From Thermoplasmata archaeon (GTDB lineage: Archaea; Thermoplasmatota; Thermoplasmata; Lutacidiplasmatales; UBA184): 64,000 nucleotides of DNA. The position numbers and the translations under genes were made by a program. Positions 10,477 through 64,000 of the stretch are shown here, piece after piece. The notes beneath the pieces were generated by a model, which searched no databases, was not told the origin of the DNA, and saw nothing but the letters and a program-made list of their open reading frames with translations. The stretch is taken from NCBI GenBank assembly GCA_021844945.1, contig JAKBSJ010000003.1, positions 162,770 through 226,769 of the forward strand, written 5' to 3'. The number at the start of each line of letters is the position of its first letter. Position 1 is the first letter of the stretch.

Positions 10477-10496
10477 TCGTCGCCTCGGTGGGCTCT

Positions 10497-11922: not shown

Positions 11923-11943
11923 TTCCCATCGTCCGAGCGCAAC

Positions 11944-11953
11944 TTCTTTAACG
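11944..11953 (+). promoter_or_regulatory. TATA-like box for prs
   Basis: TTCTTTAACG is 32-41 bases before the ATG at 11985 and about 20 bases after the signal peptidase stop. A short-leader transcript is predicted. Confidence 0.4.
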
Positions 11954-11984
11954 CGCCCGCGAGTCGCATCACGGGGAATCCCGA

Positions 11985-15163: not shown

Positions 15164-15194
15164 AGGACGCTCTGCGGCCCGCCGAGGGGCCGCC

Positions 15195-15203
15195 CGCTTA
15201 TAG
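15195..15203. promoter_or_regulatory. TATA-like box between nadB and the divergent nuclease gene
   Basis: GCTTATAGG lies 23-31 bases before the nadB ATG at 15226 and 32-40 bases before the minus-strand GTG at 15163. Its core TATA reads in both directions, and the flanks form a GCCCGC...GCGGGC inverted repeat. One box may drive both genes. Confidence 0.5.
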
Positions 15204-15225
15204 GCGGGCGGCAGGTCCATGGACG

Positions 15226-16791
15226 ATGCCTCCTCGCTCTAGCGGCCCCCTGATCATCGGGAGCGGTATCGCGGGACTTTACGTGGCACTCCGCCTCCGC
15301 GAGCTTGGGGAGAACCCGACGATCATCACCAAGGCGCGGTTGGAAGAGTCCAACACGCGCTACGCGCAGGGCGGGATCGCCGCAGCGATCGGTCCGAACG
15401 ACTCCCCCCGCCTTCACTTTCGCGACACGGTCGCCGCCGGAGCTGGTCTCGTGGACCTTCCGGCCGCACGGCTGCTGACGGAGGATGCTCCGCGGCGCGT
15501 CGCAGAACTGGTGCGCTTCGGGGTCCGATTCGACACGGTAGAAGGGGTCGTCGCGCTCGGCCGCGAGGCGGCCCATTCCCGCGCCCGGGTCGTCCACGCC
15601 GGAGGCGACGCCACCGGGCTCACCATCGAGGAGACACTCCGCGAACGAGTCGTCGAAGCGGGGATCGACGTCCGGGAACGAACCGTCCTGAGGCGCCTGA
15701 TCCGAGGGCGGACGAAGGGAGCCCCGACCGTCGTACTCTCCCGTCCCGAGGGCGACGGCGTCGAAGAAACGGACCCACGGCCGGTCGTCCTCGCGACCGG
15801 AGGTGCGGGGGGCCTCTATCGGAACAGTTCGAATCCCTCCATCACGACCGGCGAGGGGCTCGCGATCGCGTTCCGAGCGGGGGCGCTCCTCAGCGATATG
15901 GAGTTCATCCAGTTCCATCCCACGGTTCTCCGACTTCCCGGGGCCCATCCGTTCCTGATCACCGAGGCGCTGCGCGGCGAGGGCGCCGTGTTGCGGAACT
16001 CGAGGGGGGAGCGCTTCATGCCGCGCTACCACCCGCAGGCGGAGCTCGCCCCGAGGGACATCGTGAGCCGAGCGATCGTACGGGAGCTGGAGCGAACGAA
16101 GGCGACGACGGTCTTCCTCGACGCAACGGGTATCCCGCGGGAGCGGCTCTTCGGTCGGTTCCCCACCATCTGCCACTTCCTCGTGACGCACGGCCTCCAG
16201 CCGGATCGAGCCCTCATACCGGTCGTGCCCATGGCACACTACACCATCGGAGGGGTCCGGACCGACTTGGAAGGACGAACGTCGATCCGCGGCCTCTACG
16301 CGTGCGGGGAGGTTGCTTCGACGGGAGTCCATGGAGCGAACCGACTCGCGAGCAACTCCCTGCTCGAAGGTCTCGTGTTCGGAGAGCGGGTCGTTCTCCA
16401 GATCCACCACCCGCACGCCGGCGCCCCGGCTCCACCCCGACGGACCCTCGCGGTCGTCTGGCCGCCCCCGGGTCCGGGCCGCGCGGGACGAAGCGCGTTC
16501 GACGAGGTCCGCGACCTTCTGTGGACCCGGGTGGGAATCGTGAGAGACGCCGCTGGATTGAGCGGGGCCGTGCGCCGGTTCTCGGAGATCGGGGCGGCGT
16601 CCGAACCCGACGCGGCTTCGGAGCTGCCGTCGAGATTGGCCCATGCTTCGCTGACCGCGTACCTCGTGGGATACGCGGCCCTCGCCCGGACCGAGAGTCG
16701 GGGCGCGCACTATCGGAGCGACTACCCGGTGCCGCGCCCGTCGTGGCGCACCCACCTCGGTCTGGTCCGCTCCGCCTCGGGTGGCGGATAG
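15226..16791 (+). CDS. nadB: L-aspartate oxidase
   Basis: The 521-residue flavoprotein has the FAD dinucleotide motif IGSGIAG (11-17), NTRYAQGGIAAA, and the family block IQFHPT followed by LITEALRGEGA. It also has the ARE-type motif PRDIVSRAI and HGANRLASNSLLEGLVFG. It oxidises L-aspartate to iminoaspartate, the first step of NAD synthesis. The nadA and nadC partners are not in the window. The start at 15226 is set by the FAD motif and the TATA distance; open sequence further upstream is antisense to the nuclease gene. The C-terminal helical domain is somewhat short. Confidence 0.95.
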   Translation: MPPRSSGPLIIGSGIAGLYVALRLRELGENPTIITKARLEESNTRYAQGGIAAAIGPNDSPRLHFRDTVAAGAGLVDLPAARLLTEDAPRRVAELVRFGVRFDTVEGVVALGREAAHSRARVVHAGGDATGLTIEETLRERVVEAGIDVRERTVLRRLIRGRTKGAPTVVLSRPEGDGVEETDPRPVVLATGGAGGLYRNSSNPSITTGEGLAIAFRAGALLSDMEFIQFHPTVLRLPGAHPFLITEALRGEGAVLRNSRGERFMPRYHPQAELAPRDIVSRAIVRELERTKATTVFLDATGIPRERLFGRFPTICHFLVTHGLQPDRALIPVVPMAHYTIGGVRTDLEGRTSIRGLYACGEVASTGVHGANRLASNSLLEGLVFGERVVLQIHHPHAGAPAPPRRTLAVVWPPPGPGRAGRSAFDEVRDLLWTRVGIVRDAAGLSGAVRRFSEIGAASEPDAASELPSRLAHASLTAYLVGYAALARTESRGAHYRSDYPVPRPSWRTHLGLVRSASGGG

Positions 16792-16803
16792 GACCGCGCA
16801 CCC

Positions 16804-16810
16804 CTTATGA
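16804..16810 (+). promoter_or_regulatory. TATA-like box for the acyl-CoA dehydrogenase gene
   Basis: CTTATGA lies 22-28 bases before the ATG at 16832, just after the nadB stop, so the dehydrogenase may have its own leaderless transcript. Confidence 0.4.
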
Positions 16811-16831
16811 GTTCGGCCCGTTCGTCCGGTC

Positions 16832-17983
16832 ATGGACCTGCGGCTCTCCGACGAGGAGACCCAGATTCGGGACGCGGCGCGCAAGTTCGCCCAGCGGGAG
16901 ATCCAACCGCTCGCGGACCGAATGGACCGCGAGGACTACTTTCCCCGGGATGTCTTCGCGAAGCTGGGAGAGGAGGGGTTCCTCGCGGTCACGCTCCCCG
17001 AACGGTGGGGCGGGCTGGGGTTGTCGTACATCGCCCAAGCCCTCGTCCTGGAGGAGATCGCGCGCGTGAGCCCCGCTCTCGCGCTCAGCGTCGGCGCTCA
17101 CTCCAACCTGATGGCGGACAACCTGGCACGTAACGGAACGGATGCGCAAAGGGACCGTTACCTACCGTCCTTGGCCCGCGGGAAGACGATCGGCGCTCTT
17201 GCGCTGACCGAGCCGGACGCCGGCTCGGATGCTCTGAGCCTGAGAACCGCGGCCCGGAAGGACGGAAGCGGTTACCGGCTCAGCGGATCGAAGCAATTCA
17301 TCACGAACGGCCCGATCGCCGACGTCCTGCTGGTCTACGCCAAGACCGACCCCAAGGCCGGGGCCCGCGGGATCAGCGCGTTCCTCGTGACGAAGGGCTC
17401 GCCGGGGTTCACCGTCTCGCGCAGCCTCGACAAGATGGGGATGCGAGGAAGCCCGACCGGCGAGCTCTCCTTCCAGGATGTACCCGTGCCGGCCGATCAT
17501 CTCGTGGGGAGGGAGAACGAGGGGGTGGCGATCGTCATGAGCGGCCTGAACGTCGAGCGCGCGGTGCTCTCCGGGATCCCCCTGGGGATCATGGAGGAGT
17601 GCCTTGCTCGAGCCACGAGCTACGCCCGAGAGCGAGAGCAGTTCGGCCAGAAGATCGGGCGGTTCGAGCTCATCGCCGCGAAGCTCGCGGACATGTGGAC
17701 CGACCTGCAGGCAGCGCGCTACCTCGTATATTCGGCGCTCACCTCGGTTCAGGGCGACAAGCGCAGCGCCCGGGAGAGCTCGGCCGCGCTGACGTTCTCC
17801 AGCGAGGCATCGACCCGCCATGCGCTCGAGGCGATCCAGATCCTGGGCGGATATGGCTACATGCGAGACACGCCGCTCGAGCGCCTCGCTCGCGATGCCA
17901 AGCTGCTCGAGATCGGAGCCGGAACGAGTGAGATCCGACGCCTGGTCATCGCCCGGGAGCTTCTCGGCCCGGGATTCGACTGA
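16832..17983 (+). CDS. acyl-CoA dehydrogenase, isovaleryl-CoA dehydrogenase-like
   Basis: The 383-residue flavoenzyme has the ALTEPDAGSD FAD/substrate signature (124-133) and the EIGAGTSEIRRLVIARELLG end. At the position where medium-chain enzymes carry the catalytic Glu there is Gly/Ala. A Glu is instead present as E242 in SGLNVERAV, the place used by isovaleryl-CoA dehydrogenase. This points to a branched short-chain acyl-CoA substrate such as the leucine-derived one. It would pass electrons to an ETF not seen here. It fits the amino-acid-degrading theme of the window. Confidence 0.92.
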   Translation: MDLRLSDEETQIRDAARKFAQREIQPLADRMDREDYFPRDVFAKLGEEGFLAVTLPERWGGLGLSYIAQALVLEEIARVSPALALSVGAHSNLMADNLARNGTDAQRDRYLPSLARGKTIGALALTEPDAGSDALSLRTAARKDGSGYRLSGSKQFITNGPIADVLLVYAKTDPKAGARGISAFLVTKGSPGFTVSRSLDKMGMRGSPTGELSFQDVPVPADHLVGRENEGVAIVMSGLNVERAVLSGIPLGIMEECLARATSYAREREQFGQKIGRFELIAAKLADMWTDLQAARYLVYSALTSVQGDKRSARESSAALTFSSEASTRHALEAIQILGGYGYMRDTPLERLARDAKLLEIGAGTSEIRRLVIARELLGPGFD

Positions 17984-27205: not shown

Positions 27206-28420
27206 TCAGGCTCCGTGGGCGCGGGCGAGACGAAGCAGCTCATTTAACTTTGCCACCCGCTCGCCACCGAGGATCCCGGTCTTGATCCCGCGGGCCCCGA
27301 TCCCTAGGGCGACGTGCGCGAGCCAAGAATCGGGGGTCTCCCCGGAACGGTGCGAGGCGATCAGGTGGGCCCCCTTCGTGCGGGCGTAATCGACCGTGGC
27401 GAACGCGCCCGAGAGGGTGCCGACCTGGTTGACCTTGATCAGCACCGCATTGGATGCCTTTGCCTCGAGGCCCCGCCGCACGCGCGGCTCCTGCGTGACG
27501 TAGATATCGTCGCCCACGACGAGCGTGCTACGACCTACCGCGCTCGAGAGCTGCGCAAACTCTTCGAACGCCTCTTGATCGAAGGGGTCCTCTACGTAAC
27601 GGATGCCATAGCGCTCGACCAGGTCGGTCATGAACTGGACCTGGCCGGCCGGGTCGAGCGAGCGGTCCCGGTAGTGATACCGGCCCTTTTCGAAGAACTC
27701 GCTGGCCGCTAGGTCGAGTCCGGGGTAGACCTCGATCCCGAGCTCGTCGCGCGAGGCCGTGCAGGCCCCGACGAGAATCTCGAGCCCGTCGACGCTCGTT
27801 ACGGGGGCGACCCATCCGCCTTCGTCCCCCCGGCCGAGCGCGACGGTAGGGAAGCGGCGGCGAAGCTCTGTGCCGATACGTCGGTGGACGTCGATCGCCG
27901 CCCGGATCGACTCGTCGATCGTGCGACCCTCGGCGAACGCGAGGAACTCTTGGAACTCCGGTCCGCCGATGGCGTGGCGCCCCCCATTGAGGCAGTTCCC
28001 GACGACCGCGGGGAACCGGGTCCCTTCCACATCCGGTCGGCGTAAGACTTCGAAGAGCGGGCGACCGGTCTCGGACGCTACGGCGAGCGCGTTCGCTACC
28101 GACACGGCCGTAGCGGTGTTCCCACCGATCTCCGAGAACTGGGACGTCCCATCGACCTCGGCGAGGCACCGGTCGACCGCCGCCTGATCCCGCGCATCGA
28201 GTCCGATCAGTCGGGGAGCGACGAGGGACCGAAACCGGGAGACTGCTTCGGGAACTCCCCCTCGCGGGAACGCGCTCACCTCATGCGCCCCGGTGCTGGC
28301 ACCGCTCGGGGCTCCCGCGCGGCCCGAGGCGCCGCTGTCGAGCGAGAGGGTCGCTTCGACGGTCAGGTTGCCCCGAGAGTCCAGGATCCCCGCGAGATCC
28401 GCCGACCGGATGGCGCTCAC
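27206..28420 (-). CDS. eno: enolase
   Basis: The 404-residue protein has ILDSRGNLTVEA, the substrate loop GAPSGASTGAHEV, Mg-binding acids in VEDPFDQE and VGDDIYVT, catalytic Lys in LIKVNQVGTL and the end motif SHRSGETPD. It interconverts 2-phosphoglycerate and phosphoenolpyruvate. GTG 28420 overlaps the mce stop as GTGA, which fixes the start; the upstream open stretch in this frame belongs to an antisense reading of mce. Linkage to methylmalonyl-CoA genes is unusual. Confidence 0.95.
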   Translation of the reverse strand: MSAIRSADLAGILDSRGNLTVEATLSLDSGASGRAGAPSGASTGAHEVSAFPRGGVPEAVSRFRSLVAPRLIGLDARDQAAVDRCLAEVDGTSQFSEIGGNTATAVSVANALAVASETGRPLFEVLRRPDVEGTRFPAVVGNCLNGGRHAIGGPEFQEFLAFAEGRTIDESIRAAIDVHRRIGTELRRRFPTVALGRGDEGGWVAPVTSVDGLEILVGACTASRDELGIEVYPGLDLAASEFFEKGRYHYRDRSLDPAGQVQFMTDLVERYGIRYVEDPFDQEAFEEFAQLSSAVGRSTLVVGDDIYVTQEPRVRRGLEAKASNAVLIKVNQVGTLSGAFATVDYARTKGAHLIASHRSGETPDSWLAHVALGIGARGIKTGILGGERVAKLNELLRLARAHGA

Positions 28421-28812
28421 GGCCCCTCCACGAACTCGACGAGGACCCCTCCGAACGCGGAGGGGTGGGCGAAGCCGACGCGGCGACCCCGCGCCCCCGG
28501 GCGCGCGTGCTCGTCGATCACTCGCTGGCCCCCTCGCTTCAGGCGTTCGAGCTCGGAGTCGACGCTCTCCACGCGGAACGCGACGTGGTGGATCCCCTCT
28601 CCGCGGCCGTCGAGGAACTTGGCGATCGGAGAGGTCGGGGACGTCGGAGACAGCAGCTCGATGTCCGTCGGTCCGAACGGGACGAATCGGACCCGCACCT
28701 GCTGGGTGGGTACCTCCTCCGTATCGGCGCTCGCCGCGCCGGCGAGCGCGGCCCATGCCGAGGTACGTGCGTCAAGATCCCGCACCGCCACCCCGAGATG
28801 GTCGAACTGCAT
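28417..28812 (-). CDS. mce: methylmalonyl-CoA epimerase
   Basis: The 131-residue vicinal oxygen chelate protein has metal ligands H5 in FDHLGVAV, E in TDIELLSP, H in GIHHVAF and the final E in LVEFVE. It converts (S)- to (R)-methylmalonyl-CoA, supplying the mutase. It starts 11 bases after mcmA1 and overlaps enolase by 4 bases, so it belongs to the same transcript. Confidence 0.95.
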   Translation of the reverse strand: MQFDHLGVAVRDLDARTSAWAALAGAASADTEEVPTQQVRVRFVPFGPTDIELLSPTSPTSPIAKFLDGRGEGIHHVAFRVESVDSELERLKRGGQRVIDEHARPGARGRRVGFAHPSAFGGVLVEFVEGP

Positions 28813-28823
28813 GGGAACTCCCG

Positions 28824-30506
28824 TTAGAACGCCCGGGACGGAGGCTGCTCACCGAAAATCCCTCTCCAGACATCCGCGATCTCTCCGAGGGTAGCTCCCG
28901 CACGGACGGCCTCGATCACGAGCGGGAGCACGTTCTGCGACGTCCGGCTCGCTCGGGCGAGCGCCTCGAGCGTCGAGGCCGTCCTCGCCGCATCGCGGTT
29001 CTCCCGCCAGCGTCGAACCAGCGAAGCTTGGTGGCGTTCCTCTGCCGGAGAGATGCGCTGGCCGCGAACCCCTCGACGTTCGGACGGGAACAAGGAGAAC
29101 CCCGGGTTCCCTTCGAAGAGGTCGTTCACCCCGACGATGATCTCTTCGCGCGCCTCCCGGGCCCGGGCGCTTCGGTACGCCTCTCGAGCGATCTCGGCCT
29201 GGAAGTATCCCCGCTCGATCGCTACGAGGCTGCCCCCCATGTCATCGACCCGGGCGAGGTATTCGCGTGCCTCGGATTCGATCGACTCGGTTCGTTGCTC
29301 GATCTCGTAGGAGCCCGCGAGGGGATCAACGGTGTTGGGGATCCCCGACTCCTCCGCCAAGATCTGCTGCGTCCGGAGGGCCAGCCGGGCGGATGCTTCG
29401 GTCGGGAGCCCGATCGCCTCGTCGAGCGCGTTCGTGTGGAGCGACTGGGTGCCTCCGAGCACGGCGGAGAGCGCTTCCAGGGTCGTCCGCACGACGTTGA
29501 GCTCGGGCTGCTGCGCCGTCAGGCTCGAGCCGGCGGTCTGGGTGTGGAAGCGGAGCTGCATCGATCGGCTCCGCTTCGCCCCGAAGCGTTCCCGGACGGT
29601 TGCGGCCCACATGCGTCGGGCCGCCCGGAACTTCGCGATCTCACCGAGGAAGTCCCGGTCGCTCGAGAAGAAGAACGATAGGCGCGGCAGGAACTCGTCG
29701 AGATCGAGCCCTCGCGCGCGTACGGACTCGACGTAGGCGATCGCGTTCGCGATCGTGAAGGCGACCTCCTGCGGCGCGGTCGCTCCGGCTTCGCGCATGT
29801 GGTATCCCGAGACGCTGATGTAATTCCACTCGGGCATCTCGCGGGTCGCAAACTCGATCAGGTCGGTCGTCAGGCGCATCGACGCCTCGGGTGGATAGAT
29901 GTACGTGCCCCGCGCGATGTACTCCTTGAGAATGTCGTTCTGAACGGTCCCGCTGAGGCGCGCCCGCGGGACGCCGTTCTTCTCGGCGGTCGCGACGAGC
30001 AAGGCCAGAAGTATCGGGGCCGTGGCGTTGATGGTCATCGAGACCGTCGCTCGGTCGAGAGGGATCCCGGTGAACAGCGTGTCCATCGCCGCGCGGGAAG
30101 GGATGGGCACGCCGCACCGACCCACCTCGCCCCGCGCACGTTCGTGATCGGGATCGTAGCCGATCTGCGTGGGGAGGTCGAAGGCAACCGAGAGCCCGGT
30201 TTGACCTCCTTGGAGCAGGTAGCGGAACCTACGGTTCGTCTCTCGTGCGCTTCCAAACCCCGAGTACTGGCGCAAGGTCCACAGGCGACCCCGGTACATC
30301 GTGGGCTGGATCCCGCGGGTGAATGGGGTCTCGCCCGGGAAGCCGATCCGCTCGAGATAGGTGCCCTCCGGATCCACCGGCGCCGGCGCGAGAAGGGCAT
30401 CGAGCTCCGCGTCGGACGTATCGCCGAGGGTCGCCCGAGCTCGGGCCTTCCATGCGGACCGGGAGGCACGCTGCGCGGCGGAAGAGGTCGGGGCCGGGCG
30501 AGTCAT
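28824..30506 (-). CDS. mcmA1: methylmalonyl-CoA mutase, catalytic large subunit
   Basis: The 560-residue TIM barrel has the acyl-CoA mutase block IQPTMYRGRLWTLRQYSGFG, including the stacking tyrosine typical of methylmalonyl rather than isobutyryl enzymes. GLSVAFDLPTQIGYD and the end of the barrel follow. It lacks the B12 domain, which is encoded 22 kb away at 5728. The ATG at 30506 was chosen over the longer frame because a minus-strand TAATATCG box lies 22-30 bases before it, inside the end of pheT. Confidence 0.95.
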   Translation of the reverse strand: MTRPAPTSSAAQRASRSAWKARARATLGDTSDAELDALLAPAPVDPEGTYLERIGFPGETPFTRGIQPTMYRGRLWTLRQYSGFGSARETNRRFRYLLQGGQTGLSVAFDLPTQIGYDPDHERARGEVGRCGVPIPSRAAMDTLFTGIPLDRATVSMTINATAPILLALLVATAEKNGVPRARLSGTVQNDILKEYIARGTYIYPPEASMRLTTDLIEFATREMPEWNYISVSGYHMREAGATAPQEVAFTIANAIAYVESVRARGLDLDEFLPRLSFFFSSDRDFLGEIAKFRAARRMWAATVRERFGAKRSRSMQLRFHTQTAGSSLTAQQPELNVVRTTLEALSAVLGGTQSLHTNALDEAIGLPTEASARLALRTQQILAEESGIPNTVDPLAGSYEIEQRTESIESEAREYLARVDDMGGSLVAIERGYFQAEIAREAYRSARAREAREEIIVGVNDLFEGNPGFSLFPSERRGVRGQRISPAEERHQASLVRRWRENRDAARTASTLEALARASRTSQNVLPLVIEAVRAGATLGEIADVWRGIFGEQPPSRAF

Positions 30507-30527
30507 CCCGCGTCGACCGGGCGGCGA

Positions 30528-30536
30528 TATTAGACG
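30528..30536 (-). promoter_or_regulatory. TATA-like box for the mcmA1-mce-eno-rps2 run
   Basis: The minus strand reads CTAATATCG 22-30 bases upstream of the mcmA1 ATG. It overlaps the last codons of pheT, so the methylmalonyl run is probably transcribed separately from the phe genes. Confidence 0.5.
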
Positions 30537-32221
30537 GTTCCCGGCCGTCGAACGAGGGGCCACAACGCGCTGAGGTCGAGCTCTCCCCATGCGACGGGAA
30601 CCGGGATCCCCGCGGCCTCGAGAACACGGGGATGGAGTTCTCCGACCTCGGCGATTCCTTCGCCGGCCAGCCGGACGCGGGCGGCACGGCCGGGGATCGT
30701 CGCCGGGATCTCCGCCGGCTCGCGCACCCCGGTGACGTCCATCGTGCGCAGAAGGTAGTCGATCAGCGCGGCCGCGTCCGCGAAACCGAGACCCTCGCCC
30801 GCCAGCGCGAATCCGATGTGGTAGCGTGTTTCCGTTCCGCTCTCCCCCTTCGTGGATCGGACCACGACCGGACCGGTCTCGCTGATCCGCTGCGGGTAGG
30901 AGTGGCGGACGTTATGGCGGAGGGACTCGAGGAGAGAGATCGCGAGGCTCGAACGGAGCGCCGCGAACTCTTGGCTGGGCGGATTGGCGAGCCGAATCGT
31001 GTCGGGGCTCCGTTCGGCTCGTTCGACCGCGCCGTCGCTGACCACCACCGGGGTGTACAGGCTCATGAGGCCGGCGCCCAGAAGGATCGGAGAGAACCGA
31101 CGACGGAACACGGACTCCGGTCGGCGTCGACCGAGGGTCGAGCTAACGGGGAGGAGCGTTCCCGAGGTGCTCAGGCCCCGGGCGATCACGAGATCCTCGG
31201 CGACATCCACCGACCCGAGAAGGTCGATCCGCCACGGGGCGGCGGTGATGGCCCAGCCTCCCGCGGAGGCGTGGACGTCCATCCGGCACGAGCGTGCGAG
31301 ACGGCGGACTTCCGGACCGGCGATCCTCTCGCCTGCGATACCGAGAAGATCCGAGGTACGGAGCTCGATCTTCCGGGGGGAGAATACCGGGGTCTCGGTC
31401 TCGGACGTCGCCGAAGAAGGCTCGATCCGAACCGGCGCCACGGACCAACCGCGGGCCGCGAACACCAACAGGAGGAGCTGCAGCGACTCGCGCACCGCCC
31501 TCGCGCTCGTGCCGGTCGACTCGAGGAGGAGCCCCCGGTCTCCGGGGCGGACCTCGCCCGATTCGCGGCCGTTGAGAATCGGGGGAAGGCTCGCGACCGC
31601 GTCGTTCGCATCTCGGAGAACGAGACACGCGTTTCCGTCGCGGCCGAACGCGCCGTAGCGCGTCGCCATCGGGTGCTCCTCGAAGAACTCGCTCGCCGAG
31701 ATCGCGCGGTTCCGGTCGAGCGGAGTGAAGCGTACCGACTCCATCGGCTCAAGCGCATACCGCAGAGGGAAGCGGATCCGCTCGAGCGCGTAGAGACCAA
31801 GACTCGCCTTTCTTCGGTCTCGGCCCACGCTCGCGTGAATGACCTCCTGGAACCGAATCGCCTCGGCAAGGGTACCTTCATCGATCCCCGAGCGCTTCGG
31901 GGGGTGGACGAGCACGCCGGCAATCTCGGGACGCAGCGGGTGAACGGTCGCTGCGACCTCGATGGTCGGGCCCGGGCCTGTGGCGCGACGGATGTGGGGC
32001 AGCCCAGTTCGGGACCCCGTAATGCCCTCGAGGTAGAGGCCGAGTCCGCCTTCGGAGAGGAGATCCAACCGATCCGGGGTCGCCGAGATCTGGAGCTCGT
32101 CGCCGTCGATCCCGACCAGCTCGGCCTTCGATGCGAAGAGCAACTCCTCCCAGCGCGCCCGGGGGAGGGGCTCCGGGAACATCGCCTGGACCCGGGAGAG
32201 CGAGAGCGTGCTCTGGGGCAT
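30530..32221 (-). CDS. pheT: phenylalanyl-tRNA synthetase beta subunit, archaeal type
   Basis: The 563-residue protein begins LSLSRVQAMFPEPLPR, continues through B1-B5-like domains with SATPDRLDLLSEGGL (B5 precursor) and VFSPRKIELRTSDLLG. It ends in a catalytic-like core with FADAAALIDYLL and IAEVGELHPRVL. It lacks the EMAP domain of bacterial PheT, as in archaea. It completes the alpha2-beta2 enzyme charging tRNA-Phe. The ATG immediately follows the pheS TAG (TAGATG). Confidence 0.95.
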   Translation of the reverse strand: MPQSTLSLSRVQAMFPEPLPRARWEELLFASKAELVGIDGDELQISATPDRLDLLSEGGLGLYLEGITGSRTGLPHIRRATGPGPTIEVAATVHPLRPEIAGVLVHPPKRSGIDEGTLAEAIRFQEVIHASVGRDRRKASLGLYALERIRFPLRYALEPMESVRFTPLDRNRAISASEFFEEHPMATRYGAFGRDGNACLVLRDANDAVASLPPILNGRESGEVRPGDRGLLLESTGTSARAVRESLQLLLLVFAARGWSVAPVRIEPSSATSETETPVFSPRKIELRTSDLLGIAGERIAGPEVRRLARSCRMDVHASAGGWAITAAPWRIDLLGSVDVAEDLVIARGLSTSGTLLPVSSTLGRRRPESVFRRRFSPILLGAGLMSLYTPVVVSDGAVERAERSPDTIRLANPPSQEFAALRSSLAISLLESLRHNVRHSYPQRISETGPVVVRSTKGESGTETRYHIGFALAGEGLGFADAAALIDYLLRTMDVTGVREPAEIPATIPGRAARVRLAGEGIAEVGELHPRVLEAAGIPVPVAWGELDLSALWPLVRRPGTV

Positions 32222-56801: not shown

Positions 56802-58253
56802 CTAGCCCTTGACGACGCCCATCGGAGTCAGGCGAGCGACGCGCCGGGTCAGTCCCGCGCCCTCGGCCACGCGCACGACCTCCTCGATGTCCTTGTAGGC
56901 ACCGGGCGCTTCTTCCGTGACCCCTTCCCGGGAGGAGGAGCGGACCACGATGCCGCGGCCCCGTAGGGAACGGGTCACATCGTCGAACCGGAACGTACGG
57001 GCCGCCGCGCTCCGGCTCAGCCGCCGGCCGGCGCCGTGGCAGGACGAGCCGAACGAACGGATCATCGAGGTCGGAAGGCCGACGAGGACGTAGCTCGCCG
57101 TTCCCATGTCCCCCGGGATGAGCACGGGTTGCCCGCTCGAGCGATACACCTCGGAAACCTCATCCCGTCCCGCCGGAAAGGCACGGGTAGCGCCCTTGCG
57201 GTGCACGAGCAGTCGCCGAGGTCCGCTCTCGGTAACGTGCGATTCGAACTTGGCCATGTTGTGCGCGATGTCGTAGACGACCTCGATCCCAAGGTCGTCG
57301 GCCGACCGCCCGAACGTTCCTTCGAAGGCGCGCCGGACCCCCGCGGTGATCGCCTGGCGGTTGGCCCATGCGAAATTGGCTGCCGCCGCCATCGCCGCCA
57401 GGTACTCCTGCGCCCCGTCCGAGCTGATCGGAGCGCAGCACAGTTGACGGTCGACGAGCTTTACTCCCCGTTGGAGCAGATCCAGGTCCATCTTCCGGAT
57501 GTAGTCGGTCGCGACCTGGTGACCCAGCCCACGCGAGCCCGTATGCAGCATGACGACGACCTGGCGCTCTTCGAGCCCGAACGCCTCCGCGCTCGCGGGG
57601 TCGAAGAGCTGGTCCACCTTCTGGACCTCGAGAAAGTGGTTTCCGCTCCCCAAGGTGCCCAGCTGACGGCTCCCGCGCTTGCGCGCCTCGGGGCTCACCC
57701 GCTGCGGATCGGCACCGGCCAGGCATCCGTTCTCTTCCTGGACGGTTAGGTCCGTCGGCGTTCCGCCCCCCTTCTCGACGAGCCACCGAGCCCCCCCGAC
57801 GAGCACTTCGTCCATCTCCGACTCTCGTAGCAGCGAGCCGGCCTTCGAGCCGACGCCCGCGGGGACCGCCCGGTAAAGCTGTTCGGTGAGCTCGGCGAGC
57901 TTCGGGCGCACTTCCGTCTCGGTGAGACGGGTGCGCAGCAGTCGGACCCCGCAGTTGATATCGTACCCGATCCCGCCGGGACTGACGATCCCATCGTTGA
58001 GGTCGAAGGCGGCGACGCCTCCCACGGGGAAGCCGTATCCGAAGTGGATGTCGGGCATTGCGAGAGCGCGCTCGACGATGCCCGGAAGGGTCGCGACGTT
58101 GGCCAGTTGGTCGATCGCCGGATCGTGGGCTACATCGCCCAGCAGCGCCGGACTCGAGAACAAGCGACCCGGCACGCGCATGCCACGTGCGGCGTCGACC
58201 TCGATGTCGTACGTGAACTCGTCGCGAGGGACGAGCCGGAGCGGGGCCGCCAT
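56802..58253 (-). CDS. rtcB: RNA-splicing ligase RtcB
   Basis: The 483-residue enzyme has GGIGYDINCGVRL (manganese Cys), GTLGSGNHFLEV, HTGSRGLGHQV, HNMAKFE and RKGATRAFPAG. The guanylated histidine lies in the SSCHGAGRR loop. It joins 2',3'-cyclic phosphate and 5'-OH ends, sealing tRNA exons and possibly broken RNA. The window also has an intron-containing tRNA-Leu. ATG 58253 was chosen because a minus-strand CTTAATAGA box at 58276-58284 lies 23-31 bases upstream. Confidence 0.96.
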   Translation of the reverse strand: MAAPLRLVPRDEFTYDIEVDAARGMRVPGRLFSSPALLGDVAHDPAIDQLANVATLPGIVERALAMPDIHFGYGFPVGGVAAFDLNDGIVSPGGIGYDINCGVRLLRTRLTETEVRPKLAELTEQLYRAVPAGVGSKAGSLLRESEMDEVLVGGARWLVEKGGGTPTDLTVQEENGCLAGADPQRVSPEARKRGSRQLGTLGSGNHFLEVQKVDQLFDPASAEAFGLEERQVVVMLHTGSRGLGHQVATDYIRKMDLDLLQRGVKLVDRQLCCAPISSDGAQEYLAAMAAAANFAWANRQAITAGVRRAFEGTFGRSADDLGIEVVYDIAHNMAKFESHVTESGPRRLLVHRKGATRAFPAGRDEVSEVYRSSGQPVLIPGDMGTASYVLVGLPTSMIRSFGSSCHGAGRRLSRSAAARTFRFDDVTRSLRGRGIVVRSSSREGVTEEAPGAYKDIEEVVRVAEGAGLTRRVARLTPMGVVKG

Positions 58254-58275
58254 GGTGCGCGTGCACGGAACGGGT

Positions 58276-58284
58276 CTATTAAGG
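58276..58284 (-). promoter_or_regulatory. TATA-like box for rtcB
   Basis: The minus strand reads CTTAATAGA 23-31 bases before the rtcB ATG at 58253, favouring it over the in-frame ATG at 58304. Confidence 0.5.
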
Positions 58285-58354
58285 TCGAGGGCCGCGGCCC
58301 TCATCTTGAGCCAAGCGTGAAGTAGCTTCGCCGCCCTCGTAGTCGTGGCAGAGG

Positions 58355-58768
58355 GTGCCGATGTACCTGGGGCGCTTGCTCACGATGATCAACTTCGCCC
58401 TGCTCGCCGTGGCGATCGCGATCTACTTTGTCGCCCCGGCCATCGCGACGACATTCCTCTACATCCTGATCGCCTGGATGTTCGGGAGCCTCATCCTGTT
58501 CTACCTACCGATATCGCGACGGCGGATTGGCCGCTCGTCCACGGCTCCCGCGAGCCCGAACGCCCCGTCCGCGACCGGAGCTCCGGCCGCGGCCGGCGGA
58601 CTCCCTCTCCCGTCCGCGGCGGCCAGCGCGGCTTCGGCTCCGGCAGCTTCCAGCGCGCCGTCGCCCACGACCGCCGGGCCGATCGGCTTTTGCATCTATT
58701 GCGGCTCGCACCTTCCCCCGAACGCCGGGTTCTGCCCGGCGTGCGGCCACCCGGTCCGCACGATCTAG
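58355..58768 (+). CDS. small membrane protein with zinc-ribbon tail
   Basis: The 137-residue protein has two hydrophobic helices (about 10-30 and 33-52), then an Ala/Pro/Ser-rich linker (about 60-108). It ends in a zinc ribbon with C113-x2-C116 and CPACGHP. GTG 58355 or ATG 58361 could start it. Such helix-linker-ribbon proteins are common in archaea but their function is unknown. It converges on the biotin carrier gene with 14 bases between. Confidence 0.6.
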   Translation: MPMYLGRLLTMINFALLAVAIAIYFVAPAIATTFLYILIAWMFGSLILFYLPISRRRIGRSSTAPASPNAPSATGAPAAAGGLPLPSAAASAASAPAASSAPSPTTAGPIGFCIYCGSHLPPNAGFCPACGHPVRTI

Positions 58769-58782
58769 TACTGACGGTGACC

Positions 58783-59340
58783 TCACCCCGGGACGACCCG
58801 AAGCATCGCTTCCTTCGCTCGCACGTTCGACCCGGCGCGGACCGAGAGCTGCGCGACCGTGCCGTCGATCGGGCTCGTCACTTCGTTGCGCATCTTCATC
58901 GCCTCGACGACGACGAGGACCTGGCCGGTTCGGACCGGATCGCCCTCCTGGACCCGCACTTCGATCACCTTGCCGGGCATCGGCGGCACGACGGGCACGC
59001 CGGGACCGTCGCTGAGTCCGGGGGTTCCCGAGGAAGCAGGAACGCCGTGGGGGCGAGGGCGGGGAGCGGTCCGCGGGCCCGGCGGAGTTCCCCCGTCTCG
59101 ACGCACCTCCCCGATCGTCCACCTCTCTCCGTTCACATCGATCGGTCCGGGGGGGGACGCGAATCCCTGCGGCCAGCCGTCGACCACGACTCGTTCCCCC
59201 GCGATCTCGAGCTCGACCTTTAGGGGCCCGGCTTCCACGACCTCGAAGGGGAAAGTCCGTTCGCCGAGCCGTACGGTCTTCGCGTCGGGATCGACGTCGA
59301 CCGTCTCGGATCTACCCGCGCGAACGATGCTGAGCCGCAT
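58783..59340 (-). CDS. biotin carboxyl carrier protein (transcarboxylase 1.3S-like)
   Basis: The 185-residue protein has a beta-rich N-terminal half (to about 82), a Pro/Gly/Arg linker (83-115) and a biotinyl domain with K149 in EAMKM. The domain shape PMPGKVIEVRVQEGD is standard. ATG 59340 starts within the end of the 5S-like gene by 29 bases, implying coupling. It carries CO2 between the two carboxyltransferase subunits encoded upstream. The N-terminal half is longer than in the bacterial 1.3S subunit. Confidence 0.92.
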   Translation of the reverse strand: MRLSIVRAGRSETVDVDPDAKTVRLGERTFPFEVVEAGPLKVELEIAGERVVVDGWPQGFASPPGPIDVNGERWTIGEVRRDGGTPPGPRTAPRPRPHGVPASSGTPGLSDGPGVPVVPPMPGKVIEVRVQEGDPVRTGQVLVVVEAMKMRNEVTSPIDGTVAQLSVRAGSNVRAKEAMLRVVPG

Positions 59341-60841
59341 CGATCCACCTCCGTTGGCCGAGCGTCCGCACGCGTCCCTCGTGGGACCAGGGGCTCGTTC
59401 CTCCTCCCTCGCCCGCGCGCGCCGGGGGCGAAGGGGGCGCCGCGACCGGGGCGCGCAGCGCGCCAACGATGCCGAGCGCGGCGGTCGTGAGCACGTCGGC
59501 CGTGAGGCCGCGGTCGATCGTCGCCCGGTAGGACTTGTAGACTGACGGAAAGATGGCGTAGGAGAGCACGTCGCGCTCGGACGCGTTCGGAAGGAACGCC
59601 CGGACCTCGGTGGTCATCTTCTCGAACTCCGGAGGGATACGGTCGGCGGGCCGGCCCTGGATCGCCGGCTTCTCGGCCGTGACCCGCGCGACGAGCGCCG
59701 GATCCATCGGACCGGGGGGCGTGCCATAGAGACCCCGCAGGTAATCGTGCACCTCTTGCGTGACGGTACGGTAGCGCTCGCCCGCGAGCACATTGAGCAC
59801 CGCTTGGATCCCGACGATCTGACTCGTCGGCGTGACGAGCGGCGGATAGCCCAAGTCCTTGCGAACCCGCGGGATCTCGGCGAGCACCTCGGGGAGGCGC
59901 GCGAGGGCCCCTTGCTCTTCGAGCTGGGCGAGCAGGTTCGAGAGCATCCCTCCCGGAACCTGATGAAGGATGATCTCCGGATCGGTCTGGAGGGCCCGCA
60001 GTTGGAGCAGAGGGCGATAGTGCTCGAGCACCGTGCGGAAGTAGTCCGCCAGCCGGGCAAGCGCGTGCAGGTCGAGGTGCGTGTCGTACGGCGTACCTTC
60101 CATCGCGGCGACGAGCGTCTCGGTCGGAGGTTGCGAAGCGCCCCCGGCGAAGGGACTCAGCGCACCGTCTACGGACGTGGCGCCGGCCTCGGCGGCGGCG
60201 AGGCACGAGAGCGTCGACATCCCGCTGGACGAGTGCGTGTGCACCGCGACGGGCAATCCGACCTCCTTGACGAGCGCGCGCGTCAGCGCGCCGCTATCGG
60301 ACGGCGGCATGAACCCGGCCATGTCCTTGATGCAGAGCTCTTCCGCCCCCATCTCGGCGAGGCGGCGGCCGAGGTTCACGAACGACTCGAGGGTGTGCAC
60401 CGGCGATTGCGTGTAGCAGATCGTACCCTGCGCCCGGCCTCCCGCATGGCGTACCGCCTCCAGCGCGACCCGCATGTTCTCCGGGTCGTTGAGCGCGTCG
60501 AAGACACGGAAGATCGTGATGCCGGTGCGCGCGGAATGCTCGACGAACTTGCGCACGAGGTCGTCCGAATAGTGCCGGTAGCCGACGAGGTTCTGGCCGC
60601 GCAGGAGCATCTGGAGCGGGGTGTTCGGGATCGCGCGCTTGAGTTGGGCGAGTCGCTCCCAGGGATCCTCGCGCAAGAAGCGCAGGCAGACGTCGAACGT
60701 CGCGCCCCCCCAGACCTCGAGCGAACGGTACCCGATCGCGTCAAGCGGCTCCGCCGCCGGGAGCATGTCGCGCGTTCGCATCCGCGTGGCGATCAGCGAC
60801 TGGTGACCGTCCCGCAACACCGTGTCCGTGATTTGGACCAT
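59312..60841 (-). CDS. pyruvate/oxaloacetate carboxyltransferase subunit (transcarboxylase 5S / PycB-like), no biotin domain
   Basis: The 509-residue TIM-barrel enzyme has TDTVLRDGHQSL (metal D11), the Q-loop QMLLRGQN, CIKDMAGF with the conserved lysine, and metal histidines in VHTHSSSGMS. The C-terminal domain follows. It transfers carboxyl between carboxybiotin and pyruvate. Many archaeal PycB and bacterial OadA proteins end in their own biotin domain; this one stops before it, with the carrier made by the next gene. Its size and layout match the 5S subunit of transcarboxylase. Confidence 0.9.
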   Translation of the reverse strand: MVQITDTVLRDGHQSLIATRMRTRDMLPAAEPLDAIGYRSLEVWGGATFDVCLRFLREDPWERLAQLKRAIPNTPLQMLLRGQNLVGYRHYSDDLVRKFVEHSARTGITIFRVFDALNDPENMRVALEAVRHAGGRAQGTICYTQSPVHTLESFVNLGRRLAEMGAEELCIKDMAGFMPPSDSGALTRALVKEVGLPVAVHTHSSSGMSTLSCLAAAEAGATSVDGALSPFAGGASQPPTETLVAAMEGTPYDTHLDLHALARLADYFRTVLEHYRPLLQLRALQTDPEIILHQVPGGMLSNLLAQLEEQGALARLPEVLAEIPRVRKDLGYPPLVTPTSQIVGIQAVLNVLAGERYRTVTQEVHDYLRGLYGTPPGPMDPALVARVTAEKPAIQGRPADRIPPEFEKMTTEVRAFLPNASERDVLSYAIFPSVYKSYRATIDRGLTADVLTTAALGIVGALRAPVAAPPSPPARAGEGGGTSPWSHEGRVRTLGQRRWIDAAQHRSRG

Positions 60842-60859
60842 CGTGCACCCCGAGGGCCG

Positions 60860-62407
60860 CTAGAGCGGCCCATTCCCGTGCTTCTTCGGGGGGCGATCGT
60901 CCCGCTTGGACGACAGCATCCTGAGCCCGGCGACGAGGCGCGCGCGCGTCGTCGTGGGATCGATGACGTCGTCGATGTAGCCTCGCTCGGCGGCGAGGAA
61001 CGGATTCATGAACTCGGTCCGGTAGTCCCCGATGCGGCGGGCGCGCTCCTCCTCGGACATGCCTCCGTTGCCCTCTCCGCTTCGACGGAAGAGGATCTTC
61101 GCGGCTCCTTCCGCTCCCATCACCGCGATCTCCGCGCCGGGCCAGGCAAAGTTGAGGTCGCCGCCGAGGTGCTTCGAGCACATGACGTCGTAGGCGCCTC
61201 CGTAGGCCTTGCGGAGAATCACGGTCATCATCGGCACCGTCGCCTCGGCGTAGGCGTATAGGAGCTTCGCGCCGTGGCGGATGATCCCGCCGTGCTCTTG
61301 CGCCGTCCCCGGCAGGAAGCCCGGCACGTCGACGAACGTGAGCAGCGGGACGTTGAACGCGTCGCACGTGCGGACGAAGCGCGCGGCCTTCACCGATGCG
61401 TTGATATCGAGGGTGCCCGCCAGCTGCGACGGGTTATTGGCAATCACCCCGATCGAGCGGCCCGAAAGCCGGGCGAGGCCGACCACGATGTTCATCGCCC
61501 ACTCGGGCTGGATCTCGAGGAACGAGCCCGGGTCGAGGACACGATCGATCACCTCGCGCACATCGTACGGTGCGTTCGCGTCGTCGGGAACGATGCGCGC
61601 CAGCTCGGCGGCCGCGCTCGCGGCCGGCTCGACGCTCTCGGCTCGGGGAGGCTCCTCGAGGTTGTTCAACGGGAGGTATCCGAGCAAGCGGCGGACCAGT
61701 TCGAGCGCGTCCTTGTCGTTCGCCGCGGTGAGGTGGGAGACACCGCTCAGGCGGGCGTGGGCATCCGCCCCTCCGAGGTCCTCGGTCGAGACCTCTTCGC
61801 CGGTGACCTCCTTCACCACGTCCGGGCCGGTGATGAACATCTGCGAAGTGCCGTGGGCCATCACCACGAAATCGGTGAGTGCCGGCGAGTAGACCGCCCC
61901 TCCCGCGCACGGGCCTAGGATCGCCGAAACCTGGGGAACCACGCCCGAAAGACTGACGTTGCGCACGAAGACGTCCCCGTAGCCGCCGAGGCTGACGACT
62001 CCCTCCTGGATTCGGGCGCCTCCCGAGTCGTTCAGGCCCACGATCGGTACTCCCGCCTTACGGGCGAGCTCCATCACAGCGACGATCTTGGCCGCATGGG
62101 CCTCGCCGAGCGCTCCGCCGAAGACGGTCGCGTCCTGCGCGAAGGCGCAGACCGGCCTACCGTCGACCTCGCCCCAGCCGGTAACCACCCCGTCGCCCGG
62201 GATCCTCCGCTCGGCCATTCCGAACGAGGTCGCGCGGGTCGTGACGTAGGCTCCGATCTCCTCGAACGTGCCGGAGTCGAAGAACGCCTCGAGCCGCTCG
62301 CGGGCGGTGAGCTTACCGGCCGCGTGATGCCTCGCCACCCGTTCGGCGCCGCCGCCCTCGCGGGTGGCGCGCTTGAGCACCTCCCAACGATCGAACGCGT
62401 CGCTCAT
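60860..62407 (-). CDS. acyl-CoA carboxyltransferase (transcarboxylase 12S / PccB / MmdA-like)
   Basis: The 515-residue crotonase-fold enzyme has GGARIQEGV, GGAVYSPALTDFV and the second-half GGAYDVMCSKHLGGD, all family hallmarks of propionyl/methylmalonyl-CoA carboxyltransferases. It moves carboxyl between carboxybiotin and an acyl-CoA, probably propionyl-CoA. It starts inside birA by a 4-base ATGA overlap and is followed 18 bases later by the 5S-like gene. The residue selecting acetyl against propionyl was not assigned by eye. Confidence 0.93.
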   Translation of the reverse strand: MSDAFDRWEVLKRATREGGGAERVARHHAAGKLTARERLEAFFDSGTFEEIGAYVTTRATSFGMAERRIPGDGVVTGWGEVDGRPVCAFAQDATVFGGALGEAHAAKIVAVMELARKAGVPIVGLNDSGGARIQEGVVSLGGYGDVFVRNVSLSGVVPQVSAILGPCAGGAVYSPALTDFVVMAHGTSQMFITGPDVVKEVTGEEVSTEDLGGADAHARLSGVSHLTAANDKDALELVRRLLGYLPLNNLEEPPRAESVEPAASAAAELARIVPDDANAPYDVREVIDRVLDPGSFLEIQPEWAMNIVVGLARLSGRSIGVIANNPSQLAGTLDINASVKAARFVRTCDAFNVPLLTFVDVPGFLPGTAQEHGGIIRHGAKLLYAYAEATVPMMTVILRKAYGGAYDVMCSKHLGGDLNFAWPGAEIAVMGAEGAAKILFRRSGEGNGGMSEEERARRIGDYRTEFMNPFLAAERGYIDDVIDPTTTRARLVAGLRMLSSKRDDRPPKKHGNGPL

Positions 62408-63141
62408 GGACCTTCCACAACGTCGACATCGCCCGCCCTTATCGCTATCCGGTCGCGCCCCCGGACGATCCAGAGTTCGCCTTCGTCTCCGAGGGTATCG
62501 ATATGGCCCATCGCCACCCCGTCGACCGTCACCGCCCGCCCGCGACCGTACAGGCGATCCCGGCACCGATTGAGGAGGAGGGAAGCGCGCATGGGGTCCT
62601 TCAGCTCCTCGACCGCGCGCATCGCCGCCGCCGAAGTCCACTCTTCTACCTCCTCGAGCGAGGGGGGAGGCCGTACGTGGTCTTCGATCGCGGTCACGCG
62701 CGCGCGCAATTCCCCGGGCGCGTCGTGCGCGATCGACCGGACGTTGACGCCGATGCCGGCGATCTCGTACAGGCGATCGGGCCCCCGGACCTCATCGAGG
62801 AGAATCCCGGAGATCTTCCGGACCTCGTTGCCGCGCACGACGAGGAGATCGTTCGGCCACTTCAATGCGGTGCCTATTCCGAGACGACGCTCGAGCTCGT
62901 CGCCGAGCTCCTCGCCGATCGCGAGGGCGAGGCGTGTGCGGGGCGGAGGGGGGGCCTCCAGCACGATGCTGAGGTAGAGGCCCCGTCCCTCGGGCGACCA
63001 CCAGGCGTGGTCGAGACGGCCCCGCCCCTTCGTCTGATGGCGCGCGACGACCCGGGTGCCCGGTAGTGTGCCGGCGCGCGCGAGCTCGACCGCCCGGTCC
63101 TGGGTGGAACCGATCGTCTCATAGAACTCCCGCGGGATCAC
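62404..63141 (-). CDS. birA: biotin--protein ligase, catalytic domain form
   Basis: The 245-residue ligase has TIGSTQDRA, the biotin loop KGRGRLDHAWWSPEGRGLY, the KWPNDLLV motif and KISGILLDE. A small C-terminal SH3-like domain has EGELWIVRGRDR. It lacks the N-terminal winged helix of regulatory BirA. The frame opens to GTG 63222 and beyond, but GTG 63141 gives the domain start and puts an AAATCGTTAAC box (63173-63183) about 33 bases upstream. It heads the biotin operon and would load K149 of the carrier. Confidence 0.93.
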   Translation of the reverse strand: MIPREFYETIGSTQDRAVELARAGTLPGTRVVARHQTKGRGRLDHAWWSPEGRGLYLSIVLEAPPPPRTRLALAIGEELGDELERRLGIGTALKWPNDLLVVRGNEVRKISGILLDEVRGPDRLYEIAGIGVNVRSIAHDAPGELRARVTAIEDHVRPPPSLEEVEEWTSAAAMRAVEELKDPMRASLLLNRCRDRLYGRGRAVTVDGVAMGHIDTLGDEGELWIVRGRDRIAIRAGDVDVVEGP

Positions 63142-63246: not shown

Positions 63247-63603
63247 ATGGGCGAGCTTACGGAAACGCTGCGACAAATCGCTCCGAACCTTTCGACCGAG
63301 ATCGGTGGTCGTCTCCGGGGATCCATGGGAGCCATCCTGCGGGGCTACCTCCCCCAATCCTGGTCGATAGAGAGCCCGTCGGACGCTACGACGCTCTCCG
63401 TGAGCGCCGACGGGACCGTGACCGTTCGCGACGGGGTGGATCCCGCCGCCGATGTGGTCATCCGGGGGGCCCAAGCGAGTCTCCTCGCCGCGCTGCGGCG
63501 GGGACGTGACGCCGGGGTGCGCCGCACGGACTTCGAGGTCGAACTGCGGACCCGCAAGGGCCGAACCGCCTTCGAGTTCCTGCGCGGACGCTTCGGGCTT
63601 TAG
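63247..63603 (+). CDS. SCP2-like small protein
   Basis: The 118-residue protein has the strand order of the SCP2 sterol-carrier fold: WSIESPSDATTLSVSADG, VTVRDGVDPAADVVIRG and SLLAALRRGRDAGVRRTDFEVEL. No catalytic motif is expected in this fold. In archaea such proteins may bind lipids or acyl-CoA. It diverges from birA. The assignment rests on a pattern read by eye and could be wrong. Confidence 0.5.
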   Translation: MGELTETLRQIAPNLSTEIGGRLRGSMGAILRGYLPQSWSIESPSDATTLSVSADGTVTVRDGVDPAADVVIRGAQASLLAALRRGRDAGVRRTDFEVELRTRKGRTAFEFLRGRFGL

Positions 63604-64000
63604 CCGAGCTCGCGAAGACGCGCGATCATCTTCACGACCGCGCGCACCGCGTTCGCCGCGTTCTCGATCCGGTCCTGGGCTTGCAGGCGGGTCTCGCCGG
63701 GGCCGGTGATGCCGAGGCCGACGGGCTTCGAGAAATCGACGGCAAGGTCCGCCAGCTTCCGTGCGGCCTGATGCATCACGATCTCGTCGTGCTGCGTCTC
63801 GCCTTCGATGACCGCGCCGAGCGCGACGACCGCATCGACGTCCGAACGGCCCAGGAGGACCTTGGCCGCGAGGGGGAGGTCGTAGACTCCGGGCGTCTTG
63901 ACCACCGGGCCCAGGGTCGCTCCCAAGAACGCCACCTCCTCCTTCGCTCGTTCGAGCATCGCGTAGGTGATGTCGAAGTTGTACTCGCTCGCCGCGATCG
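63600..64000 (-). CDS. ribH: 6,7-dimethyl-8-ribityllumazine synthase (5' end outside window)
   Basis: The visible 133 or so codons hold the family blocks TPGVYDLPLAAKVLL, VVALGAVIEGETQHDE and PVGLGITGPGETRLQAQDR, and end with an archaeal-type short C terminus. The frame is open to the window edge, reading SEYNFDITYAML before the first in-window Met, so the gene continues upstream. RibH condenses the uracil ribitylamine with a butanone phosphate in riboflavin synthesis. Its stop overlaps the SCP2-like stop by 4 bases. Confidence 0.93.
   Translation of the reverse strand, partial: IAASEYNFDITYAMLERAKEEVAFLGATLGPVVKTPGVYDLPLAAKVLLGRSDVDAVVALGAVIEGETQHDEIVMHQAARKLADLAVDFSKPVGLGITGPGETRLQAQDRIENAANAVRAVVKMIARLRELG

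Follow-up and report, generated by a model that had tools for sequence, protein, structure and literature searches.

Gene content of the operon

We analysed a window of 64,000 nucleotides from a Thermoplasmata archaeon (contig JAKBSJ010000003.1, positions 162,770 to 226,769), which contains an operon of four consecutive open reading frames (ORFs) on its minus strand. Gene content, distribution and chromosomal position suggest that this operon very probably encodes a transcarboxylase that is free of biotin carboxylase (BC) and does the job of propionyl-CoA carboxylase (PCC) in this archaeal family. In the order of transcription, the genes are those for the biotin-protein ligase BirA, a 12S-like carboxyltransferase, a 5S-like carboxyltransferase and a separate biotin carrier (Table 1). 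The families and lengths given for these coupled genes in the original prediction were confirmed by the ORFs and by Pfam, which matched Carboxyl_trans (PF01039; E = 3.1e-195) to the 12S-like protein, PYC_OADA (PF02436; 1.7e-53) and HMGL-like (1e-20) to the 5S-like protein, Biotin_lipoyl (PF00364; 1.7e-17) to the carrier and BPL_LplA_LipB (3.7e-13) to BirA; the same scan bore out the claim that the 5S-like protein has no biotin domain of its own. BirA also scored 96.7 bits with TIGR00121, above the cut-off of 83.1.

The stop codon of birA and the ATG of the 12S-like gene overlap by 4 nt, and the 5S-like and carrier genes by 29 nt (59312-59340), so that the end of the 5S gene is read in two frames. 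Each of these spacings was counted 56 times in the 83 loci of relatives, that is, in every family genome with PF02436 (n = 84) besides the window's own. All four genes were present in 59 of the 83 loci, some of which are cut. In the 24 partial loci (12 without BirA, 6 without the carrier and 6 with 5S and carrier only), the sequence always ended where the missing gene would lie, at a contig end in 22 cases and at the end of the stretch analysed in the other two (L051 and L053). The 12S and 5S genes were 1.3-4.0 kb apart in L038, L051 and L053, and BirA was 1.5 kb away from 12S in L049.

Residues expected of the active proteins are conserved. D11, K172, H201 and H203 of the 5S-like protein, which align with the metal-site residues of the 5S subunit of propionibacteria, were invariant across 22 family proteins, and the motifs LRDGHQS, CxKDM and H[TC]HS occurred in 72, 73 and 70 of 73 sequences, respectively. 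The biotinylation motif EAMKM was found in 74 of 77 carriers from family loci; two of the others are cut off before the motif and the third is that of L052. The position equivalent to PccB 422, presumably a functional one, is Asp in 60 of the 67 family 12S proteins read. The best PDB match of the 12S-like protein was PccB (1xnv, 672 bits), with the Propionibacterium 12S subunit (1on3) at 581 bits; the 5S-like protein matched PycB (5ks8, 514 bits) best, followed by OadA (2nx9, 473 bits) and the transcarboxylase 5S subunit (1rqb, 444 bits). With NCBIfam models, the 5S-like protein scored 520.6 bits for transcarboxylase 5S (NF008984; cut-off 827) and 646.5 bits for OadA (cut-off 756.5), and the 12S-like protein 772.6 bits for MmdA (cut-off 998.8).

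Biotin carboxylase survey and exchange with a PCC block

The original prediction had reported neither BC nor the membrane subunit OadB/MmdB in the window and had proposed a search for BC in the rest of the genome. No match to PF02785 (BC) or PF03977 (OadB/MmdB) was found in the whole genome (1.26 Mb in five contigs, 86.67% complete). In a control set of 14 genomes, the PF02785 search was positive in 13, including four archaea, and the PF03977 search in 2. Among 101 family genomes, PF02436 was present in 84, PF02785 in 3 and PF03977 in none. The 5S and BC families never occurred together: none of the 84 genomes carrying PF02436 had PF02785, and the three BC-bearing genomes (G009, G038 and G098) were all among the 17 without PF02436, a distribution with a chance of 0.004 if the genomes were independent, which they are not. 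Of the 36 family genomes with a completeness of 90% or more and a contamination of 5% or less, 33 had PF02436 and 2 had PF02785. That a BC is hidden by incompleteness was rejected, as none of these 33 high-quality 5S-bearing genomes had one.

In a sample of 244 genomes of the phylum, requested at a completeness of at least 80%, PF02436 was found in 68. Eleven of these belong to the family and have neither BC nor OadB, whereas of the other 57, 42 have BC and OadB is present in 11 of the 15 that do not, so that 53 of 57 have one or both. Elsewhere in the phylum, 5S-like proteins are nearly always accompanied by a charging or decarboxylating partner; in the family sample they never are. In the window's genome we found no BC subunit or domain such as defines PCC, neither the BC of PycA nor a biotin domain on a PycB as in two-subunit pyruvate carboxylase, and no OadB/MmdB as in the Na+-pumping oxaloacetate and methylmalonyl-CoA decarboxylases. 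Its gene content is that of a transcarboxylase: 12S, 5S and a separate carrier, no BC or membrane subunit found, and the key residues kept.

The role of the block as an equivalent of PCC is best supported by an exchange at one chromosomal place. G038 and G009, which have no 5S gene, carry a PCC block of 12S', BC and carrier between RtcB and BirA, where the window has 12S, 5S and carrier. The flanks and BirA of the window and of the G038 locus (L117) are the same and in the same orientations (Table 1; flank names in both loci are putative), with carrier, 5S and 12S on the minus strand between them in the window. In G009 (L119) the order is RtcB, 12S', BC, carrier, BirA; no flank match was found for G098 on its 5.1-kb contig. 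The order 12S-5S-carrier parallels 12S'-BC-carrier, 5S taking the position of BC. Identity between the 12S' proteins and the window's 12S is 56-57%, and the 12S' proteins form a clade of their own (support 99/98). In a BirA tree of 19 rows from transcarboxylase loci, the window included, and 2 from PCC loci, picked for spread over genera, all 21 family rows formed one clade (100/99), those of the PCC loci among them, and BirA of G009 grouped with the two rows from genus g4, to which G009 belongs (94/89). Between the two kinds of locus, then, it is the carboxyltransferase block that differs, with BirA and the flanks kept. Since two relatives have a PCC block at this very site, a transcarboxylase in the role of PCC is the best reading of the operon.

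Table 1. Positions of the operon, its flanks and partner genes in the window, and of the PCC locus of G038 (L117)
Feature	Position	Strand	Remarks
BirA biotin-protein ligase	62404-63141	-	245 aa; GTG start; first gene of operon
12S-like acyl-CoA carboxyltransferase, PccB family	60860-62407	-	515 aa; ATG start
5S-like pyruvate/oxaloacetate carboxyltransferase	59312-60841	-	509 aa; without biotin domain; C-terminal W-x3-G-R tail
Carrier	58783-59340	-	185 aa; N-terminal beta domain, linker, biotinyl domain with EAMKM
RtcB-like gene, flank	56802-58304	-	ORF; tblastn match in 70/83 relatives' loci, also beside PCC block in L117 and L119
Small ORF, flank	58355-58768	+	zinc-ribbon-like C-terminus by eye; tblastn match in 56/83 loci and L117
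Small ORF, flank, presumably SCP2-like	63247-63603	+	no Pfam hit at 1e-6; tblastn match in 38/83 loci and L117
Lumazine-synthase-like gene, flank near window end	63600-63959	-	tblastn match in 30/83 loci and L117
Methylmalonyl-CoA mutase, large subunit	28824-30590	-	PF01642, E = 6.3e-201
Methylmalonyl-CoA epimerase-like ORF	28417-28812	-	adjoins mutase; motif FDHLGVAV only
MeaB GTPase (mutase chaperone)	4775-6313	-	PF03308, E = 4.3e-83
L117: RtcB-like	4052-5527	-	
L117: small ORF	5605-5955	+	
L117: 12S'	6127-7662	+	
L117: BC	7722-9248	+	
L117: carrier	9373-9720	+	
L117: BirA	9920-10636	-	
L117: SCP2-like	10795-11148	+	
L117: lumazine-synthase-like	11888-12244	-	

Proposed reaction and its direction

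The three subunits would form one active complex, working as follows. BirA would biotinylate the Lys of the carrier's EAMKM; the 5S-like subunit, through its metal site, would move the carboxyl group of oxaloacetate to biotin and release pyruvate; and the carrier would swing the carboxyl group to the 12S-like subunit, which would carboxylate propionyl-CoA to methylmalonyl-CoA. The epimerase and the B12-dependent mutase, with MeaB, would then convert methylmalonyl-CoA to succinyl-CoA, which would return to oxaloacetate. A route through transcarboxylase adds no net C4: since methylmalonyl-CoA returns to oxaloacetate, propionyl-CoA would leave as pyruvate, with no ATP spent.

The original prediction had placed mutase, epimerase and MeaB in the window. 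The mutase and MeaB were recovered by Pfam, and the epimerase is probable, from its motif. A second match to the mutase large subunit lies in the same genome (G000:C2:98046-99578), and mutase matches occur in 97 of the 101 family genomes, mostly two per genome, of which the second may have a different acyl-CoA as its substrate. The MeaB match spans only residues 216-476 of the 512-aa ORF, whose first 215 residues may reflect an over-extended start or another domain.

If the enzyme is a transcarboxylase, it probably runs from propionyl-CoA and oxaloacetate to methylmalonyl-CoA and pyruvate. GTP-dependent phosphoenolpyruvate carboxykinase (PEPCK), ATP-PEPCK and the phosphoenolpyruvate carboxylase (PEPC) of PF00311 were absent from 41 of 41 family genomes, in searches that did not cover the PF14010 PEPC and malic enzyme; the 14 control genomes gave GTP-PEPCK in 2, PF00311 in 7 and ATP-PEPCK in 5. 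With neither PEPCK nor PF00311 PEPC, these archaea would benefit from a way to turn C4 compounds into pyruvate. There is a precedent for this direction in Pelotomaculum, which is reported to have a propionyl-CoA:oxaloacetate transcarboxylase in the propionate pathway (PMC6046458).

The same enzyme running in reverse, from pyruvate and methylmalonyl-CoA to oxaloacetate and propionyl-CoA, would serve a fermentation or redox-balancing cycle of the Wood-Werkman type, the direction favoured by the original prediction. The reaction is presumably near equilibrium, oxaloacetate made from pyruvate could be useful in the 41 genomes without PEPCK and PF00311 PEPC, and the window holds an SdhA/FrdA-like flavoprotein gene (within 14890-17983, with an acyl-CoA dehydrogenase gene directly after it). 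However, the PCC block, taken to run towards methylmalonyl-CoA, stands at the same place in two genomes, which makes the Wood-Werkman direction less likely, and such a cycle gives no net C4. If the family is Lutacidiplasmatales, an aerobic terminal oxidase detected in 19 of the 22 more complete genomes of that group (PMC9287336) is a further point against the reverse direction, which we regard as unlikely.

Origin of the subunits and comparison with known systems

To place the carboxyltransferases among their relatives, we used a 5S tree of 71 rows, 18 of them from the family, and a 12S tree of 28 rows, 17 of them from the family and C-terminal halves only, both including the window and picked for spread over genera. 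The family 5S proteins formed one clade (100/100) on a long stem, as did the family 12S proteins (100/100). The propionibacterial 5S (1rqb) grouped apart from the family, with Vibrio OadA and an Endozoicomonas row (99/92), and the C-terminal half of 1on3 with the Clostridiales locus L184 and Thermotoga PccB (99/96). Constraining the family with the propionibacterial reference gave p values in the approximately unbiased (AU) test of 0.031 for 5S (a single Propionibacterium reference) and 0.0136 for 12S (a single reference, C-terminal half), so that kinship with the Propionibacterium enzyme was moderately rejected. By comparison, grouping the family 12S with the 12S' of relatives that bear PCC was not rejected (AU p = 0.127). 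Nor was grouping the family 5S with the 5S of f6, another family of the same class (p = 0.094), so that the 12S-5S-carrier arrangement may have a common origin in archaea. A scan of genome contigs for outside relatives of 5S listed 80 loci, 2 of the family and 78 outside it; the nearest outside relatives among these matches were 57% identical and PycB-type, in the direction of the branching within PycB that the original prediction had considered adverse to it, but the tree places the family inside no PycB clade.

The carrier also resembles that of PCC. Its AlphaFold model (mean pLDDT 75.2, pTM 0.40) has a beta domain joined by a disordered linker to a biotinyl domain. In a Foldseek search of the PDB, the top 17 matches comprised 16 entries of PCC or of an engineered version of it (glycolyl-CoA carboxylase) and one of methylcrotonyl-CoA carboxylase. 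E values ranged from 3.6e-9 to 4.3e-7, and the alignments of the 185-residue carrier spanned 191-197 columns when gaps are counted. TM-scores were low (0.35-0.38) and rmsd values high (11-19 Å), as would be expected if the two domains are placed differently. We read the matched chains as alpha subunits and the matched part as their BT and biotin carboxyl carrier (BT-BCCP) region, and on this model the carrier would correspond to PccA minus its BC.

These comparisons suggest that the enzyme was probably assembled separately from the propionibacterial one, by combining a 12S and a carrier that are PCC-like with a 5S that is PycB/OadA-like, as judged from few references. The statement in the original prediction that the genes are exactly the propionibacterial subunit set accordingly stands for gene content and fails for kinship, as the AU tests and the resemblance of the carrier to the end of the PCC alpha subunit argue. 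True descent from a bacterial transcarboxylase of the Propionibacterium or Pelotomaculum type, transferred and then diverged, would account for the same three-part gene set; the AU p values are not extreme, and the trees contained no Pelotomaculum proteins. Both propionibacterial references nevertheless grouped with proteins other than those of the family, and the carrier is longer than 1.3S and PCC-like; we consider such descent improbable.

The 5S-like protein ends in a tail that, read from the sequence, consists of a helix, a Pro/Ala-rich linker and the motif W-x3-[GA]-R. This motif was found in 72 of 73 family 5S proteins called complete, the exception being that of G044 (L087), where the tail beyond an in-frame stop was not counted. 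Outside the family it occurred in 10 of 124 rows, corresponding to 7 distinct genes: those of G169, G250, G299 and G324 in f6, G129 in f29, the Bathyarchaeota locus L135, and one G104 protein that bears biotin and in which the motif may be due to chance. A 12S gene adjoins or lies near the 5S gene in G250, G324, G299, G129 and L135; outside the family, the motif is thus almost confined to other archaeal operons with 12S and 5S. It was not present in L184, which has both 12S and 5S. No Pfam family other than ACC_epsilon was matched by two or more of 13 tails; ACC_epsilon was matched by 2 of them (best E = 0.083, not significant) and reached E = 5.5 for one of 4 tails in a separate run; a profile search of the PDB with the tail returned nothing relevant. 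A relationship to the epsilon subunit of acyl-CoA carboxylases may be taken as a lead, and the tail could have a docking role.

Several of the outside loci resemble the operon. In f6, a 12S gene adjoins a biotin-free 5S gene with the tail motif, together with a carrier gene, at L248 (G250), L250 (G324) and L237 (G299); BirA is also near in G250 and G324. These two genomes have a BC elsewhere, and none was found in G299 (98% complete). In L244 (G129), 12S is followed directly by a biotin-free 5S with the tail WSMAGR, and one BC lies elsewhere in the genome. L135 (Candidatus Bathyarchaeota L.E.AR.18) carries BC, 12S, a tailed biotin-free 5S and a carrier on one contig, and is possibly a dual carboxylase sharing one carrier.

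The arrangements in G250, G324 and L135 would fit an alternative in which the operon encodes two carboxylases, for propionyl-CoA and for pyruvate, whose shared carrier is charged by an unrecognised BC. Yet the PF02785 search that detected BC in three relatives and nearly all controls found none in the 84 5S-bearing family genomes, and we hold this alternative to be very unlikely. Soluble oxaloacetate and methylmalonyl-CoA decarboxylases working without a membrane pump, which the scores with the MmdA and OadA models might suggest, were rejected as barely credible, since PF03977 occurs in 0 of 101 family genomes as against 11 of the 15 BC-less PF02436 genomes outside the family.

Several points weigh against a BC-free transcarboxylase in the role of PCC. 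Both 5S and BC are missing from 14 of the 101 family genomes (13 are less than 90% complete; G021 is 91% complete), so that the function is either not universal or was missed there, and a BC that escapes PF02785 may exist. The pattern is not unique to the family, since G114, G229, G299 and G301 outside it also have PF02436 without BC or OadB. Neither carboxyltransferase reaches the curated cut-off of the equivalog or subfamily models that NCBIfam has for transcarboxylases and decarboxylases. Val replaces the PccB-type Asp at the 422-equivalent position in 7 of 67 family 12S proteins, and the 5S gene of G044 (L087:706-2226) has an in-frame stop at codon 193, which may reflect decay or an assembly error. 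BirA of G038 (genus g1) is weakly placed (81/77), in a mixed clade of g1, g5 and g6, and the AU tests against propionibacterial kinship are moderate, with one reference per subunit and only half of 12S. The lack of PEPCK and PF00311 PEPC leaves the supply of oxaloacetate unexplained, the PF14010 PEPC and malic enzyme lying outside the searches.

A wider proposal, a real possibility although a somewhat doubtful one, is that the operon encodes a second transcarboxylase, with an assembly history of its own, in which the ATP-driven BC of PCC was exchanged for a PycB/OadA-type carboxyltransferase with an epsilon-like tail anchor. It would be the standard propionyl-CoA route of a family without a PEPCK that we could find, assimilating propionyl-CoA as pyruvate rather than C4 and serving also as the C4-to-C3 step. 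The same architecture, 12S-5S-carrier with the tail, occurs in other archaeal lineages. If the operon works as proposed here, an ATP-free transcarboxylase that arose separately from the classical enzyme is the usual propionyl-CoA route of a whole archaeal family, is the counterpart of a PCC found at the corresponding chromosomal site in two genera, and offers a test case for the modular evolution of biotin enzymes, with the charging module swapped and the acceptor module kept. Carbon and energy accounting would change as well, with no ATP per propionyl-CoA and pyruvate rather than net C4 as the product. The paper on Lutacidiplasmatales gives pccB as the PCC beta chain, and the word biotin does not occur in its main text (PMC9287336); if the family belongs there (its GC content is 64-69%, against about 69% given for Lutacidiplasmatales in the same source), that label may need a check for a missing pccA. 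In a partial coverage of the literature, by title or the start of the abstract, we found no report of transcarboxylase in Thermoplasmatota.

The BC-free transcarboxylase proposed here is a variant of a known enzyme type rather than a new type. With the Propionibacterium freudenreichii transcarboxylase (12S/5S/1.3S; 1on3, 1rqb) it has in common the three-part gene set, the separate biotin carrier, the lack of BC and the 5S metal-site residues, at positions we take to be equivalent. Its 5S and 12S are not sisters of the propionibacterial ones, however; its carrier, which matches PCC, carries an additional beta domain at the N-terminus, whereas 1.3S is a protein of 123 aa; and the W-x3-G-R tail of 5S, the presence of BirA in the operon and the archaeal host set it further apart. 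The Pot enzyme of Pelotomaculum thermopropionicum is likened to it by role: in the methylmalonyl-CoA pathway of that bacterial syntroph, Pot is proposed to use oxaloacetate for the carboxylation of propionyl-CoA (PMC6046458), as we propose here. Two-subunit pyruvate carboxylase provides, in PycB, the closest outside 5S relatives among the matches listed and the best PDB match; among the 78 outside loci, 67 have a biotin motif at the protein end and 59 a BC match in the stretch analysed, and the archaeal operon described here shows neither. PCC (PccA/PccB) differs in its BC, in place of which the operon has a PycB/OadA-like carboxyltransferase, and shares with it the PccB-like 12S, a carrier like its own carrier end and, in G038 and G009, the same place on the chromosome.

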